Assembly (NCBI RefSeq): GCF_038632915.1 | Contig: NZ_CP152050.1 | Span: 1,209,001-1,273,000, forward strand | Reading direction: 5' to 3' | Origin: Paenisporosarcina sp. FSL H8-0542 | Lineage (GTDB): Bacteria > Bacillota > Bacilli > Bacillales_A > Planococcaceae | Length of the DNA: 64,000 bases | Part shown: piece after piece, positions 3,163 to 54,200 of the stretch | How positions within the stretch are numbered: position 1 is the first letter of the stretch | Layout of the letters: the number at the start of each line of letters is the position of its first letter | Position numbers and translations under genes: made by a program | Notes under the pieces: generated by a model | The model's database searches: none | Seen by the model: the letters and a program-made list of their open reading frames with translations, nothing else | Told to the model about the DNA's origin: nothing

Positions 3163-4356
3163 ATGACTAATATATTGGCAATCAATGCTGGAAGCTCATC
3201 GTTAAAATTCCAATTGCTTCAAATGCCTGAAGAACATGTTGTGGCTAAAGGATTAATCGAGCGTATCGGATTGAAAGAACCTATCTTTTCCATGACAACG
3301 AATGGGCAGAAAGTCGAATTCATCGAAAAGATTACAAATCACCAGGACGCAGTTCAATTACTCCTGCACCATCTGATAGAACAGAAAGCAGTGAATTCTC
3401 TACAGGATATCGACGGCATCGGACATCGATTGGTACATGGTGGTGAAGAGTATAGCGATTCCGTATTAATTGATGATGAAGCCCTTATAGCATTTGAAAG
3501 ACTATCGGATTTGGCACCACTCCATAATCCTGCAAACATTGCAGGTATCATCGAATTTAAAAAAGCATTACCACATGTGCCTGCCGTGGCAGTTTTTGAT
3601 ACAGCATTTCATCAGACTATGCCGGAAAGTTCTTTTTTATATTCAATTCCTTACGATTACTATAAGAAATACGGCATCAGGAAATATGGTTTTCACGGAA
3701 CTTCGCACAAATATGTAACAGGACGAGCTGCAGAATTGCTGAATCGTCCAGTAGAGACCATTCGACTGATATCCTGTCATTTAGGTAACGGAGCCAGTAT
3801 CGCGGCAATCGATGGGGGACGCTCAATTGATACATCAATGGGGTTCACACCTTTAGCGGGTGTCACGATGGGGACCCGTTCAGGAAATCTGGATCCAGCG
3901 CTTATTCCTTTCTTGATGGAAAAGACCGAAAAAAGTGCAGAAGAAGTATTGGATGTCTTGAACAAAAAGTCTGGAATGCTTGGTGTATCAGGATTTTCAA
4001 GTGATTTGCGCGACATAGAAATGGAAGCATCGAAAAATAATCCGCGTGCTCAATTAGCTCTTGACGTGTTTGCAAACCGCATTCATAAATATATCGGTTC
4101 CTACGCAGCACGCATGAATGGAGTCGACGCCATCATTTTCACGGCAGGCATCGGAGAAAACAGTGAAATAATCCGTGCAAAAGTATTAGCGGGTCTTCAA
4201 TTCATGGGCGTCTACATGGATCCAGACTTGAACAAAATTCGCGGAAAAGAAGCATTTATCAGCTTCCCACATTCCCCGGTAAAAGTCATTGTCATCCCGA
4301 CGAACGAAGAAGTAATGATTGCAAGGGATACGGTGAGATTGTCTGGTTTATTATAG
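3163..4356 (+). CDS. ackA: Acetate kinase
   Basis: Interconverts acetyl phosphate plus ADP and acetate plus ATP in overflow metabolism. From the ATG at 3163 the protein is 397 aa, the family length. Visible residues include Asn8 in NAGSSSLK, Arg89 in GHRLVHGG, Asp146 in [10 protein letters not shown], His178 in [10 protein letters not shown], Arg239 in [10 protein letters not shown] and the late TAGIGENS motif. A GTG start 21 bases upstream is also open, but the ATG has AAGGGG at a suitable distance and fits the conserved [10 protein letters not shown] start. No clear terminator follows. Confidence 0.97.
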
Positions 4357-50036: not shown

Positions 50037-51125
50037 ATGACGAAACTTGATGAAACACTTACAATGCTGAAAGATTTAACAGACGCAAAGGCCATACCTG
50101 GGAATGAACGTGAAGCACGAGATGTTATGAGAAGATACATCGAGCCATTTGCTGACCGAATGGATTCAGATAATCTGGGTAGCTTAATTGCAGAAAAAGT
50201 AGGCGACGCGGAAGGCCCGAAAATCATGGTTGCCGGTCACTTGGATGAAGTCGGATTCATGATCACTCAAATTGATGATAAAGGTTTCTTAAAGTTCCAA
50301 ACCGTTGGTGGCTGGTGGTCACAAGTTATGCTTGCTCAACGTGTAACAATTGTGACGCGTAAAGGTGAATCTATTACTGGTGTCATTGGATCGAAACCAC
50401 CACATATCTTATCACCTGAAGCACGCAATAAACCGGTTGATATCAAAGACATGTTTATTGATATCGGTGCCTCTTCGAAAGAAGAAGCTATGGAGTGGGG
50501 CGTATTGCCAGGAGATATGGTAACACCATATTTCGAATTCTCTGTTATGAACAATGAAAAAATGCTTCTGGCAAAAGCGTGGGATAACCGTATTGGTTGT
50601 GCAATCGCAATTGATGTTCTTAAGGCATTAAAAGATGAGAAACATCCAAACATTGTATATGGTGTGGGAGCTGCCCAAGAAGAAGTTGGATTACGTGGAG
50701 CACGCACAGCAGCCGCGAAAATCAAGCCGGATATTGGTTTTGCAGTTGACGTCGGTATTGCTGGTGATACGCCAGGGATTACAGCAAAAGAATCTACAAG
50801 CAAAATGGGAGCAGGTCCACAATTGGTATTGTTTGATGCTTCAATGGTTTCTCACAAAGGACTTCGCGATCTAGTGGTAGATACTGCCGAAGAAAATAAT
50901 ATTCCTTATCAGTTTGAATCTATTCCTGGAGGCGGAACAGATGCCGGAGCGATTCATTTGACAGCGAACGGTGTTCCTTCATTGGCCATTGGGATCGCAA
51001 CTCGCTATATTCATTCTCATGCAGGTATTTTACACCGTGATGATTATGAAAATGCAGTCAAACTGATTGTCGCGGTAATCAAAAAACTAGATCGTGACAC
51101 AGTGAACAAAATTATCTTCGACTAA
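50037..51125 (+). CDS. ysdC: M42 family glutamyl aminopeptidase YsdC
   Basis: Cytosolic dizinc aminopeptidase/glucanase-fold enzyme of 362 aa. Metal and catalytic residues: His68 and Asp70 (AGHLDEVGF), bridging Asp in AWDNRIGC, Glu pair in [11 protein letters not shown], Asp in AVDVGIAGD and His in HSHAGIL. TTAGGAGGA upstream of the ATG. Same order ysdA-ysdB-ysdC as B. subtilis, with the dUTPase gene inserted. Confidence 0.93.
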
Positions 51126-51137
51126 TAAGGAAATCAG

Positions 51138-51164
51138 AAAGCATCGCTGAGGCGATGCTTTTTT
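51138..51164 (+). terminator. Intrinsic terminator after ysdC
   Basis: Stem AAAGCATCGC / GCGATGCTTT followed by TTT. Confidence 0.9.
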
Positions 51165-51228
51165 GATACTCTTGGTATTTTATGCATGATAGATTGTTGT
51201 CATATCAATCATTAATTGAAAGGTGAAG

Positions 51229-51430
51229 GCGTAGTCCAAGTGGCTGCGCTTTTATTTATGTCCCATATATTTTGACGTGAGAAATTATTGAAAAAATCTA
51301 TTTTGTTTTCCAATCTACCTAGAGCATTTTTCTATCACTTAATATGTTATAGATGTAAGGGAAAACGGATTGAGTGGAAACGCGTAACGGAGTCTACTAA
51401 CAATCCAAACGGAAGGAGGTGAAATTAATA
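51229..51430 (+). promoter_or_regulatory. Leader of the first Cys-rich paralogue
   Basis: Non-coding leader duplicated at 52248-52446. It contains a hairpin (GCGTAGTC / GGCTGCGC, then TTTT), the conserved blocks TTTTCCAATCT and CCTAGAGCA, and AATATGTTATAGATGTAAGG before an AAGGAGGTG ribosome site. No promoter class was identified with confidence. Confidence 0.5.
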
Positions 51431-52081
51431 ATGGGATATAGCAAAAAGACATGGGTAAAAATAGAGGGCTGTGACTGTTTCAAATGTCGTGAAGCAGAAA
51501 GCAAAGAAAAATGTGAAAAAAACCACGATTGGGATAAAAAAGATGAATGTAAATGTGCTAAGTGTGGTGATGTTAACATCCATGTAGTATGCAAAGAAGA
51601 AGATCACGATAAGAAGGATCACGATGAGAAAAAGAAAGACGACTGTGAAAAATGCACAGGTAAAACAGACAAAGTAGAGTTCCAATCAGACACATCATTT
51701 TTAGACGATGAAATTTTCGAAGAACCGATCCAAGTACTTCAGGTTTCTTTCAACAAAATATGTGAAGGTGACAAGGTTTGGTTGAGTGGAATTGTTGGTT
51801 TTGATAATGACACAGTTGTTTGTGGTAATGATGTTGCTGTGATTAAATTAACAATTGTAAGAACAACTGCGTCAGGAAGTGAGCGTATCATCTACAGACA
51901 AACTTTTGAAATCGATCAACCTGGACATGACGATCTTACTCAAGTGCCATTTGCACATGTGGAATTCGAATCAAATGAAAACAAAAATGTAACTTATACA
52001 GTTTTCGTACAACGCCTGAATGATAACAGAGATGTATTTTTATTCGGACAAAACACATTGGCTGCTCTAAGAATTAACTAG
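51431..52081 (+). CDS. Cys-rich two-domain protein of unknown function, paralogue 1
   Basis: Protein of 216 aa that I do not recognise. The N-terminal domain (1-78) is rich in Cys, His, Lys and Asp: GCDCFKCREAE, then CKCAKCGD, a charged linker of HDKK-type repeats (58-70), and CEKC; 10 of 12 cysteines lie here (14, 16, 19, 28, 40, 42, 45, 54, 72, 75). The C-terminal domain (about 80-216) looks beta-rich (VQLQVSF, VWLSGIVGF, VAVIKLTIVR, ending NTLAALRIN). No signal peptide or TM. Metal binding is plausible; a spore or surface role is only a guess. AAGGAGG lies 11 bases upstream. Confidence 0.8.
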   Translation: MGYSKKTWVKIEGCDCFKCREAESKEKCEKNHDWDKKDECKCAKCGDVNIHVVCKEEDHDKKDHDEKKKDDCEKCTGKTDKVEFQSDTSFLDDEIFEEPIQVLQVSFNKICEGDKVWLSGIVGFDNDTVVCGNDVAVIKLTIVRTTASGSERIIYRQTFEIDQPGHDDLTQVPFAHVEFESNENKNVTYTVFVQRLNDNRDVFLFGQNTLAALRIN

Positions 52082-52104
52082 TTCACGAAATGGATGTAAA
52101 TTTG

Positions 52105-52130
52105 AAGTGTCTTATGAAAATAAGACACTT
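52105..52130 (+). terminator. Hairpin after paralogue 1
   Basis: Perfect 10-bp stem AAGTGTCTTA / TAAGACACTT followed by TATTTTATT. The same hairpin recurs after paralogue 2. Confidence 0.8.
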
Positions 52131-52186
52131 TATTTTATTATTAAATAATAAATTTAACTTATAATTATAAATATTCACATATAATT

Positions 52187-52227
52187 ATAACAAAGTGTGA
52201 ATATTTATGAAATTACTAGCACTATAT
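52187..52227 (+). pseudogene. Relic of the argF start region
   Basis: Bases 52197-52217 (GTGAATATTTATGAAATTACT) match the argF start at 53225-53245 exactly, including the ATG (52207). The frame reads MKLLALY then stop, versus MKLLEFVNL in argF, and the GGAG ribosome site is lost (AAAGT). It marks the right-hand end of the tandem duplication. Confidence 0.7.
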
Positions 52228-52249
52228 TAATACTATAAATAGAGTGGAG

Positions 52250-52274
52250 CGTAGTCCAAGTGACTACGTTTTTT
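52250..52274 (+). terminator. Terminator-like hairpin in the second leader
   Basis: CGTAGTC / GACTACG stem followed by seven T. It is the homologue of the weaker hairpin at 51229-51250. It may stop read-through from paralogue 1. The rest of the leader to 52446 matches the first leader. Confidence 0.7.
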
Positions 52275-52446
52275 TATGTCCAAAAAATATGATATGAGAA
52301 ACGATAGAAAAAACTATTAGTTTTCCAATCTGCCTAGAGCAACTTTCTCTCTTTTAATATGTTATAGATGTAAGGCAAATACGGATTGAGAGAAACCGAA
52401 ACATGGATTCTAGTATCGATCCAAAAGGAAGGAGGTGCAATCAAAT

Positions 52447-53091
52447 ATGAAATATAACAAAAAGACGTGGGAAAAAATAGAGGGCTGTGACTGTTTCAAA
52501 TGTCGTGAAGCAGAGACGAAAGTAGAATGGTGTGACCATAAACACGACTGGGATAAGAAGGAATGTCCTAAGTGTGGTGATGTTAACATTAAAGTAGTAT
52601 GCGAGAAAGACAATCACGATAAGAAAGACGATCACGATAAGAAAAAACACGACTGTGAAAAATGCACAGGCAAAACAGACAAAGTAGAATTCCAATCAGA
52701 TACATCAGTTTTAGACGATGAAATATTCGAAGAACCGATTCAAGTACTTCAGGTTTCATTCAAAAAAATCTGTAAAGATGACAAAGTTTGGTTTAGCGGA
52801 ATTGTTGGTTTTGACAATGACACATGTGTTTATGGTAATGATGTTGCTGTAATTAAGTTAACAATTGTAAGAACATCTGAGTCAGGTAGCGAACGTACGA
52901 TTTACAGACAAATTTTCGAAATTGATCAACCTGGACATGATGATCGTACTCAAGTGCCATTTGCACATGTGGAATTCGAATCAAATGAAAACAAAAATGT
53001 AACTTATACAGTTTTCGTACAACGCCTGAATGATAACAGAGATGTATTTTTATTCGGACAAAACACATTGGCTGCTCTAAGAATTAACTAG
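52447..53091 (+). CDS. Cys-rich two-domain protein of unknown function, paralogue 2
   Basis: Protein of 214 aa, tandem duplicate of the previous gene. Same architecture: MKYNKKTWEKIEGCDCFKC start, Cys/His/Asp/Lys-rich domain (cysteines 14, 16, 19, 29, 40, 43, 52, 70, 73; linker HDKKDDHDKKKHDC), then the beta-rich domain. Differences are concentrated in the N-terminal half; the last 147 bases (52948-53094) are identical in DNA to 51938-52084. AAGGAGGTG upstream. Function unknown. Confidence 0.8.
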   Translation: MKYNKKTWEKIEGCDCFKCREAETKVEWCDHKHDWDKKECPKCGDVNIKVVCEKDNHDKKDDHDKKKHDCEKCTGKTDKVEFQSDTSVLDDEIFEEPIQVLQVSFKKICKDDKVWFSGIVGFDNDTCVYGNDVAVIKLTIVRTSESGSERTIYRQIFEIDQPGHDDRTQVPFAHVEFESNENKNVTYTVFVQRLNDNRDVFLFGQNTLAALRIN

Positions 53092-53118
53092 TTCGCAGTA
53101 TCGGTGTAAAGAAAGTTA

Positions 53119-53149
53119 AAGTGTCTTATGAAAATAAGGCACTTTTTTT
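53119..53149 (+). terminator. Terminator after paralogue 2
   Basis: Stem AAGTGTCTTA / TAAGGCACTT (one G-U pair) followed by TTTTT. Confidence 0.85.
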
Positions 53150-53234
53150 GAATTAATTAATAAATATTCACTTGTAATTATAAATATTCAAATATATAAT
53201 AACTATACATAATTATAACGAGGAGTGAATATTT

Positions 53235-54200
53235 ATGAAATTACTTGAATTCGTAAATCTTGAAGTAGTGGAAAGTGTGAAAAATAAAGACTTGTTAACA
53301 TGGCTCGACTATACTTCAATGGAAGTAAAACAATTGTTGGAACTAGCAACCAATCTGAAGAAGTTGGCTAAAAACAACGTGCACCCTCCACTACTGGCAG
53401 GAAAGACGGTAGGGCTCATATTTGAAAAACACTCAACCAGAACGCGTATTTCATTTGAAGTTGGAATCAATCAATTAGGTGGTCATGCAATGTATATGCA
53501 TGCAAGAGACTTGCAAATCGGACGTGGGGAGCCTATTTCAGATACTGGAAAAGTATTATCGGGTTACATGGACGGCATTATGATTCGTGCCCATTCACAT
53601 AAAATGGTCGAAGAATTAGCTGAAGCTGCGAGTATTCCTGTCATCAATGGCTTAACAGATCTATTCCATCCCTGCCAGGCTTTAGCCGATGTCCTGACGA
53701 TTCATGAAGTGAAAGGCTATTTAGCAGGTTTAAAACTTGCTTACGTGGGGGACGGGAATAATGTAGCACATTCTCTCGTTATTGCGTGTGCTCATTTAGG
53801 AATTGATGTATCCATTGCAACTCCTAAAGGTTTTGAAATTGATTCCACGATTCTTAACAAGGCTCAAAAACTAGCCGCTTCAAATGGTTCAAGCATCCTG
53901 GCGACTAACAATCCAATTGAATCTGTATCAGGTGCGGATGTCATTTATACAGATGTCTGGACCAGTATGGGGCAAGAAGAAGAGACAGCCGCGCGACTTG
54001 ATGCTTTCAAAGAGTATCAAATTAATGAAGATCTCGTGAAACACGCTAAAACGGATTATTTATTCTTGCACTGCTTGCCCGCGCATCGTGAGGAAGAAGT
54101 CGCAACATCTATCATCGATGGTCCGCATTCAGTTGTATTTGAACAAGCAGAAAATCGACTCCATGCTCAAAAAGCCATATTAGCATCGATTCTGTCATAA
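53235..54200 (+). CDS. argF: Ornithine carbamoyltransferase
   Basis: Makes citrulline from ornithine and carbamoyl phosphate in arginine synthesis; 321 aa. Carbamoyl-phosphate motif STRTRISFE, ornithine-side motifs FHPCQALAD and HCLPAHREEEV, so anabolic/catabolic OTCase chemistry is intact. CGAGGAG lies 6 bases upstream. It stands alone, without other arg genes. TGAATATTTATGA overlapping the start and nearby AAATATTCA half-sites resemble ArgR/AhrC boxes, a weak indication of arginine control. Confidence 0.93.
   Translation: MKLLEFVNLEVVESVKNKDLLTWLDYTSMEVKQLLELATNLKKLAKNNVHPPLLAGKTVGLIFEKHSTRTRISFEVGINQLGGHAMYMHARDLQIGRGEPISDTGKVLSGYMDGIMIRAHSHKMVEELAEAASIPVINGLTDLFHPCQALADVLTIHEVKGYLAGLKLAYVGDGNNVAHSLVIACAHLGIDVSIATPKGFEIDSTILNKAQKLAASNGSSILATNNPIESVSGADVIYTDVWTSMGQEEETAARLDAFKEYQINEDLVKHAKTDYLFLHCLPAHREEEVATSIIDGPHSVVFEQAENRLHAQKAILASILS

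Follow-up and report, generated by a model that had tools for sequence, protein, structure and literature searches.

The window, i.e., the whole stretch of 64,000 nucleotides analyzed here, belongs to a Paenisporosarcina-type genome of 3.63 Mb (G000) and carries two Cys-rich open reading frames between an M42-family aminopeptidase gene and argF. The two are arranged as tandem units of approximately 1 kb, each comprised of a promoter-leader, the Cys-rich gene, a terminator, and the promoter and start of argF. The locus is almost identical to that of Paenisporosarcina sp. HGH0030 (L011, genome G006), and a search of the rest of the G000 genome recovered no further copies of the Cys-rich gene beyond the window pair. 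The features are listed below by window position.

50037..51125 (+): M42-family (glutamyl-aminopeptidase-like) aminopeptidase; NCBIfam TIGR03107, E 2.9e-98, below the family cut-off
51229..51253 (+): terminator-like hairpin GCGTAGTCC..GGCTGCGC-TTTT, left edge of unit 1; repeated, with homologous hairpins in relatives
51319..51430 (+): copy 1 promoter region and 5'UTR; conserved core TTAATATGTTATAGATGTAAG (51339-51359), GGATTG..CAATCC stem, GGAGGTG ribosome site
51431..52081 (+): Cys-rich gene, copy 1; product of 216 aa with a CDCxxC head, a Lys/Asp/His linker, and a predicted jelly-roll domain at the C-terminus
51936..52084 (+): putative gene-conversion tract; zero paralog-specific differences between copies 1 and 2 in a four-way alignment
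52103..52132 (+): copy 1 intrinsic terminator
52141..52230 (+): argF ghost (promoter region, ribosome site, first codons); its dead frame MKLLALY* opens with the ATG at 52207
52246..52272 (+): terminator-like hairpin, left edge of unit 2
52333..52446 (+): copy 2 promoter region and 5'UTR; core at 52354-52374
52447..53091 (+): Cys-rich gene, copy 2; product of 214 aa
53118..53145 (+): copy 2 intrinsic terminator
53172..53200 (+): functional-looking argF promoter TTGTAA-17-TATAAT, by consensus match only
53235..54200 (+): argF, ornithine carbamoyltransferase; NCBIfam TIGR00658, E 2.1e-129, above the cut-off

Synteny in the relatives G004, G001, G008, and HGH0030 marks the aminopeptidase as the constant left neighbor. 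The left-edge hairpin (51229..51253) has homologs in G004 and G001 and a weaker one in G008, and the argF promoter is kept 5' of argF in G004, G001, G007, and G005. Between the aminopeptidase terminator and this second hairpin (51150-51228), TAGATTGTTGTCATATCA is conserved with G004 and may represent a small RNA or regulatory site. Within the argF promoter region (53160-53245) and the ghost (52150-52217), TGAATATTTAT/AATATTCA half-sites resemble ArgR operators (ARG boxes); one such half-site, which extends over the argF start codon, recurs in the ghost.

Tandem duplication and the argF ghost

The initial annotation interpreted this locus as a tandem duplication that copied the start of argF along with the Cys-rich gene. 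The leader, gene, and 3' hairpin are indeed present twice, aligning in register at a spacing of about 1010-1028 nt, and the two encoded proteins share 85% identity. The 21-base match between 52197-52217 and 53225-53245 is exact and, scored against 1000 dinucleotide shuffles, exceeds them all (42 versus a maximum of 35); the ghost frame after copy 1 reads MKLLALY*, which upholds the dead argF start. The segment from the hairpin to the argF start is likewise homologous (52136-52196 versus 53150-53224; score 67 versus a shuffle maximum of 57). Homology is thus unbroken from the terminator into argF, and the non-homologous segment that the annotation had named as counter-evidence is not present.

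At the left edge, homology between the units ends at the hairpin, with none found further left. The second leader is a repeat, as claimed, with one refinement: the beginning of the supposed leader (52246-52272, homologous to 51229-51253) is a terminator-like hairpin, and the conserved promoter/5'UTR portion is limited to 51319-51430 and 52333-52446. A transcript initiated at the argF ghost would meet the hairpin at 52246-52272 ahead of copy 2.

HGH0030 features the same two-copy layout. Its ghost keeps CTAGAA and encodes the frame MKLLELFEYYK*, matching argF one codon further (MKLLE) than the ghost of the window; its ghost promoter region has lost 20 nt, as expected of non-functional sequence. 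Both the unbroken homology and this longer ghost support a duplicated unit that ran from the leader to a few codons into argF. The ancestral order of a single Cys-rich gene followed by argF is also borne out, since the single-copy allele sought among relatives occurs in G004 as aminopeptidase, gene, argF, with the gene at L013 2836-3483(-) directly before argF, which runs from 2696(-). Overall, the observation is confirmed and its interpretation as a duplication supported, and tandem duplication itself is an ordinary event.

Identity is 85% between the window copies but 53% with the G004 copy, which places the duplication later than the G004 split. It is not recent: synonymous divergence between copies amounts to 0.36 across the gene and rises to 0.71 in the N-terminal part, compared with 0.94 when argF of the window is set against that of G004. 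Both copies are intact in two strains (the window strain and HGH0030) and dN/dS between them is about 0.2 (0.075/0.356); the nonsynonymous divergence of 0.075 points to retention of both under purifying selection. In a four-way alignment of two copies from two strains, paralog-specific differences occur throughout but are wholly absent from the final ~148 bp of coding sequence (51936-52084). Identity between copies reaches 98.8% at 51921-52081, falling to 88.3% in the adjacent upstream sequence and to 80.7% in the adjacent downstream sequence; outside the tract, the copies are 15-20% divergent. The simplest reading is a partial gene conversion that would have homogenized the last ~150 bp before the two strains split.

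The Cys-rich protein, its C-terminal domain, and its leader

Pfam and NCBIfam searches returned no match for the window proteins. They contain CDCxxC, CxxC, and HDKK motifs; the number of cysteines varies from 6 to 12 among orthologs, and only C14, C16, C19, and C28 of the GCDC..C head are invariant. No signal peptide is apparent on inspection of either window protein. The C-terminal ~140 residues form a domain unannotated in Pfam and NCBIfam that is present in 28 of 399 genomes and 18 of 145 sampled Bacilli genera. Iterated searches led from copy 1 to Gln-rich proteins of a sister genus (G166/G217; E 6.5e-9), then to a protein of G175 that combines Cys with GPP-collagen (E 3.3e-5), and then to long GATGAT collagen-like and short Cys/His/Asp-rich proteins (E to 8e-32). 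The domain often caps collagen-like, spore-type proteins. An apparent sequence similarity to LlaJI.R1 (6c5d, E 0.004) faded when a better profile was used and was dropped. Searches for mobile carriers found no phage with the Cys-rich gene and one plasmid record with the C-terminal domain only; on this 6.4-kb plasmid (CP062264.1, L053:2917-3363) the domain is a stand-alone gene beside a Spo0E-like gene. The plasmid is labeled Brevibacterium, a doubtful host for a spore-former gene.

Given 21 diverse sequences of this domain only, AlphaFold2 returned an all-beta model (pLDDT 92.3, pTM 0.87), a confidently predicted TNF/C1q-type jelly roll. Modeling the whole protein on 7 close sequences gave no usable structure (pLDDT 41.6). 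In a Foldseek search, viral capsid jelly rolls gave the best E-values among the matches listed; the closest small-domain PDB neighbors among the 50 matches listed are the TNF-like lectins BC2L-C and PLTL (TM about 0.6-0.66), and no BclA structure is among those 50. Using spoIVA as marker, carriage of the Cys-rich gene or the domain is restricted to spore formers among the 34 carrier genomes tested (34/34, versus 268/399 in the class sample); the probability that all 28 class matches fall in spoIVA-positive genomes is 9e-6, uncorrected for ancestry.

Several known spore-surface systems invite comparison. BclA and F-BclA are collagen-like exosporium glycoproteins whose C-terminal TNF/C1q jelly roll is displayed as the BclA tip (PMC11952670). 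The window proteins resemble them in the predicted C-terminal fold, and the same domain caps collagen repeats in relatives; however, they have no collagen Gly-X-Y repeat or PF01391 match and carry a Cys-rich head instead, and a Pfam sequence search found no match of the jelly roll to BclA_C (PF18573). CsxA, ExsY, and CotY are Cys-rich, self-assembling exosporium or coat proteins for which disulfide cross-linking has been proposed (PMC7333573). Supposed disulfide cross-linking by a Cys-rich spore-former protein is the common trait, whereas Pfam and NCBIfam reveal no sequence relation and the cysteines of the window proteins belong to a head that is joined to a jelly roll. Finally, the model matches the S-type Bacillus endospore appendage subunit Ena2A (9i0y; E 5e-5, TM about 0.5); F-ENA subunits are marked by DUF4183 (PF13799) and an N-terminal hook, and no sequence match to DUF4183 or another Ena family was found in the window proteins.

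Within the genus, the leader core TTAATATGTTATAGATGTAAG, allowing up to 3 mismatches, occurs only upstream of the Cys-rich gene. The three-mismatch match in G008 marks the orthologous locus, and its reading as a chance match was dropped. Each of the nine leaders tested is predicted to form a 5'UTR stem ahead of its strong ribosome site (z-scores -0.5 to -2.8), and inspection revealed one compensatory change (G-C to A-U in G004); single-sequence folds were used because RNAalifold on a MAFFT leader alignment misaligned the stem. This stem may stabilize the messenger. An Rfam search of the leader had no match, and the core contains no clean sigma-E or sigma-K match. The sigma-K -10 consensus is CATAnnnTA; AATATGTTA is one base off this element, and a clear -35 AC was not seen.

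Relocation, a second duplication, and exchanged C-terminal domains

The initial annotation had also named two copies at distant loci as evidence against a tandem duplication. G003 does carry a pair at another locus, away from argF, but its copies are mutually adjacent, 1 kb apart; its own aminopeptidase and argF lie directly adjacent elsewhere. Each copy is preceded by the decayed 3' end of an M42 aminopeptidase gene and a terminator (ghosts at L014:2470-2640 and 3500-3720; scores 50-109 versus shuffle maxima of 37-47). Adjacent copies, each with an M42 ghost, indicate a separate, independent tandem duplication of a unit from the aminopeptidase-argF site. Because these ghosts match the G004 aminopeptidase better than that of G003 itself, the unit may have been acquired laterally from another lineage. 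Near the pair lies a cotH gene. In the protein tree, G003 and G004 are poorly placed due to their long branches.

The jelly roll is the C-terminal domain in G000, G004, HGH0030, and the relocated G003 pair. G007 (L023:2487-3200(-)) and G008 (L032:1006-1431(-)) encode the same leader and Cys-rich head followed by an unrelated domain of ~85 residues, which is 50% identical between them, also stands alone in G166, and has no Pfam match. In G007, a jelly-roll fragment IEVAMNDICDVTYTVEVK persists past the stop codon, with 0 of 1000 shuffles reaching its score against G004; its survival indicates that the jelly roll was replaced and that the domain was not different from the outset. The G001 gene consists of head-motif repeats only, and a by-eye candidate for a jelly-roll remnant 3' of it was not significant. 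In G008, an 81% complete assembly, argF is missing at the locus and was not found elsewhere in the assembly. G005 has argF without the Cys-rich gene, and the gap holds what by eye is transposase-like debris. A DUF7852 gene lies near the Cys-rich gene of G007 (L023:4115-4861(-)), and in G437 (L072) DUF7852 is fused to collagen repeats and the same jelly roll; together, these associations make DUF7852 a probable spore-surface domain as well.

Proposed role and alternative explanations

We consider it probable that one gene was tandem-duplicated in place, from the terminator-like hairpin to approximately codon 5 of argF, that both copies were kept and partly converted, and that the product resides on the spore surface, its Cys-rich head serving for cross-linking and its tail forming a TNF/C1q-like jelly roll. 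The ancestral single gene would have been located between the M42 aminopeptidase and argF, and the duplication would have yielded two complete copies, separately promoted and terminated, with a dead argF start between them. From sequence and structural model, the protein is most likely a mother-cell-made coat or exosporium protein. Late in sporulation, the conserved leader would drive expression of both genes in the mother cell. The GCDCxxC head could then cross-link into the coat or exosporium via disulfides, and the jelly roll, probably trimeric, would be displayed outward. A spore role is suggested by the occurrence of the domain in collagen-like spore-type proteins, its co-occurrence with spoIVA, the predicted jelly-roll fold, and the cotH and DUF7852 context; the lack of an apparent signal peptide fits spore assembly from the mother-cell side.

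An origin other than duplication in place would produce an identical layout: a fragment of a related strain that spanned the leader, gene, and argF start could have integrated by a single, Campbell-type crossover, with two diverged alleles side by side and an equivalent ghost as the outcome. The 15-20% divergence outside the conversion tract is compatible with such an event, as is the G003 unit, which indicates that the gene moves between sites and whose M42 ghost is closer to the G004 gene. Yet no donor allele was found that resembles one of the copies more than the two resemble one another, and at 85% their mutual identity far exceeds that with G004 (53%) or G003. We therefore regard integration as unlikely and favor duplication in place.

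The nature of the product is open to similar scrutiny. Its CDCxxC, CxxC, and HDKK motifs could belong to a soluble, Cys/His/Asp-rich metal-binding or redox protein of vegetative cells, but we rate this as quite improbable: cysteine number drifts between 6 and 12 in orthologs around just four invariant positions (C14, C16, C19, C28), and the C-terminal domain is the one found on collagen-like spore-type proteins and, among the carriers tested, is restricted to spoIVA genomes. A part in arginine regulation, through position and a shared argF control region, seems very improbable. The gene does adjoin argF in five genomes, and the argF promoter region was duplicated along with it; nevertheless, it has its own promoter-leader and terminator, it lies away from argF in G003, G005 retains argF without it, it stays at the locus in the incomplete G008 assembly in which argF was not found, and the ghost promoter is partly deleted in HGH0030. 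A spore-surface protein encoded by a gene duplicated in place remains the preferred reading.

Beyond the window strain, we raise as a tentative and somewhat doubtful suggestion that the M42-aminopeptidase/argF interval of Paenisporosarcina is a spore-surface diversification site, where the C-terminal domain on display is swapped against an unchanging leader and Cys-rich anchoring head, and where copies multiply, relocate, and become homogenized by gene conversion. The history of the gene is unusually legible, as two independent duplications each left a fragment of a different neighbor (the argF start versus the aminopeptidase end). The unannotated jelly-roll family and the domain swap are of more interest than the duplication itself: the domain occurs in at least 18 Bacilli genera, is absent from Pfam and NCBIfam, and links Cys-rich and collagen-like spore-surface proteins, and at this single chromosomal locus the displayed domain has been exchanged while the head stayed constant.
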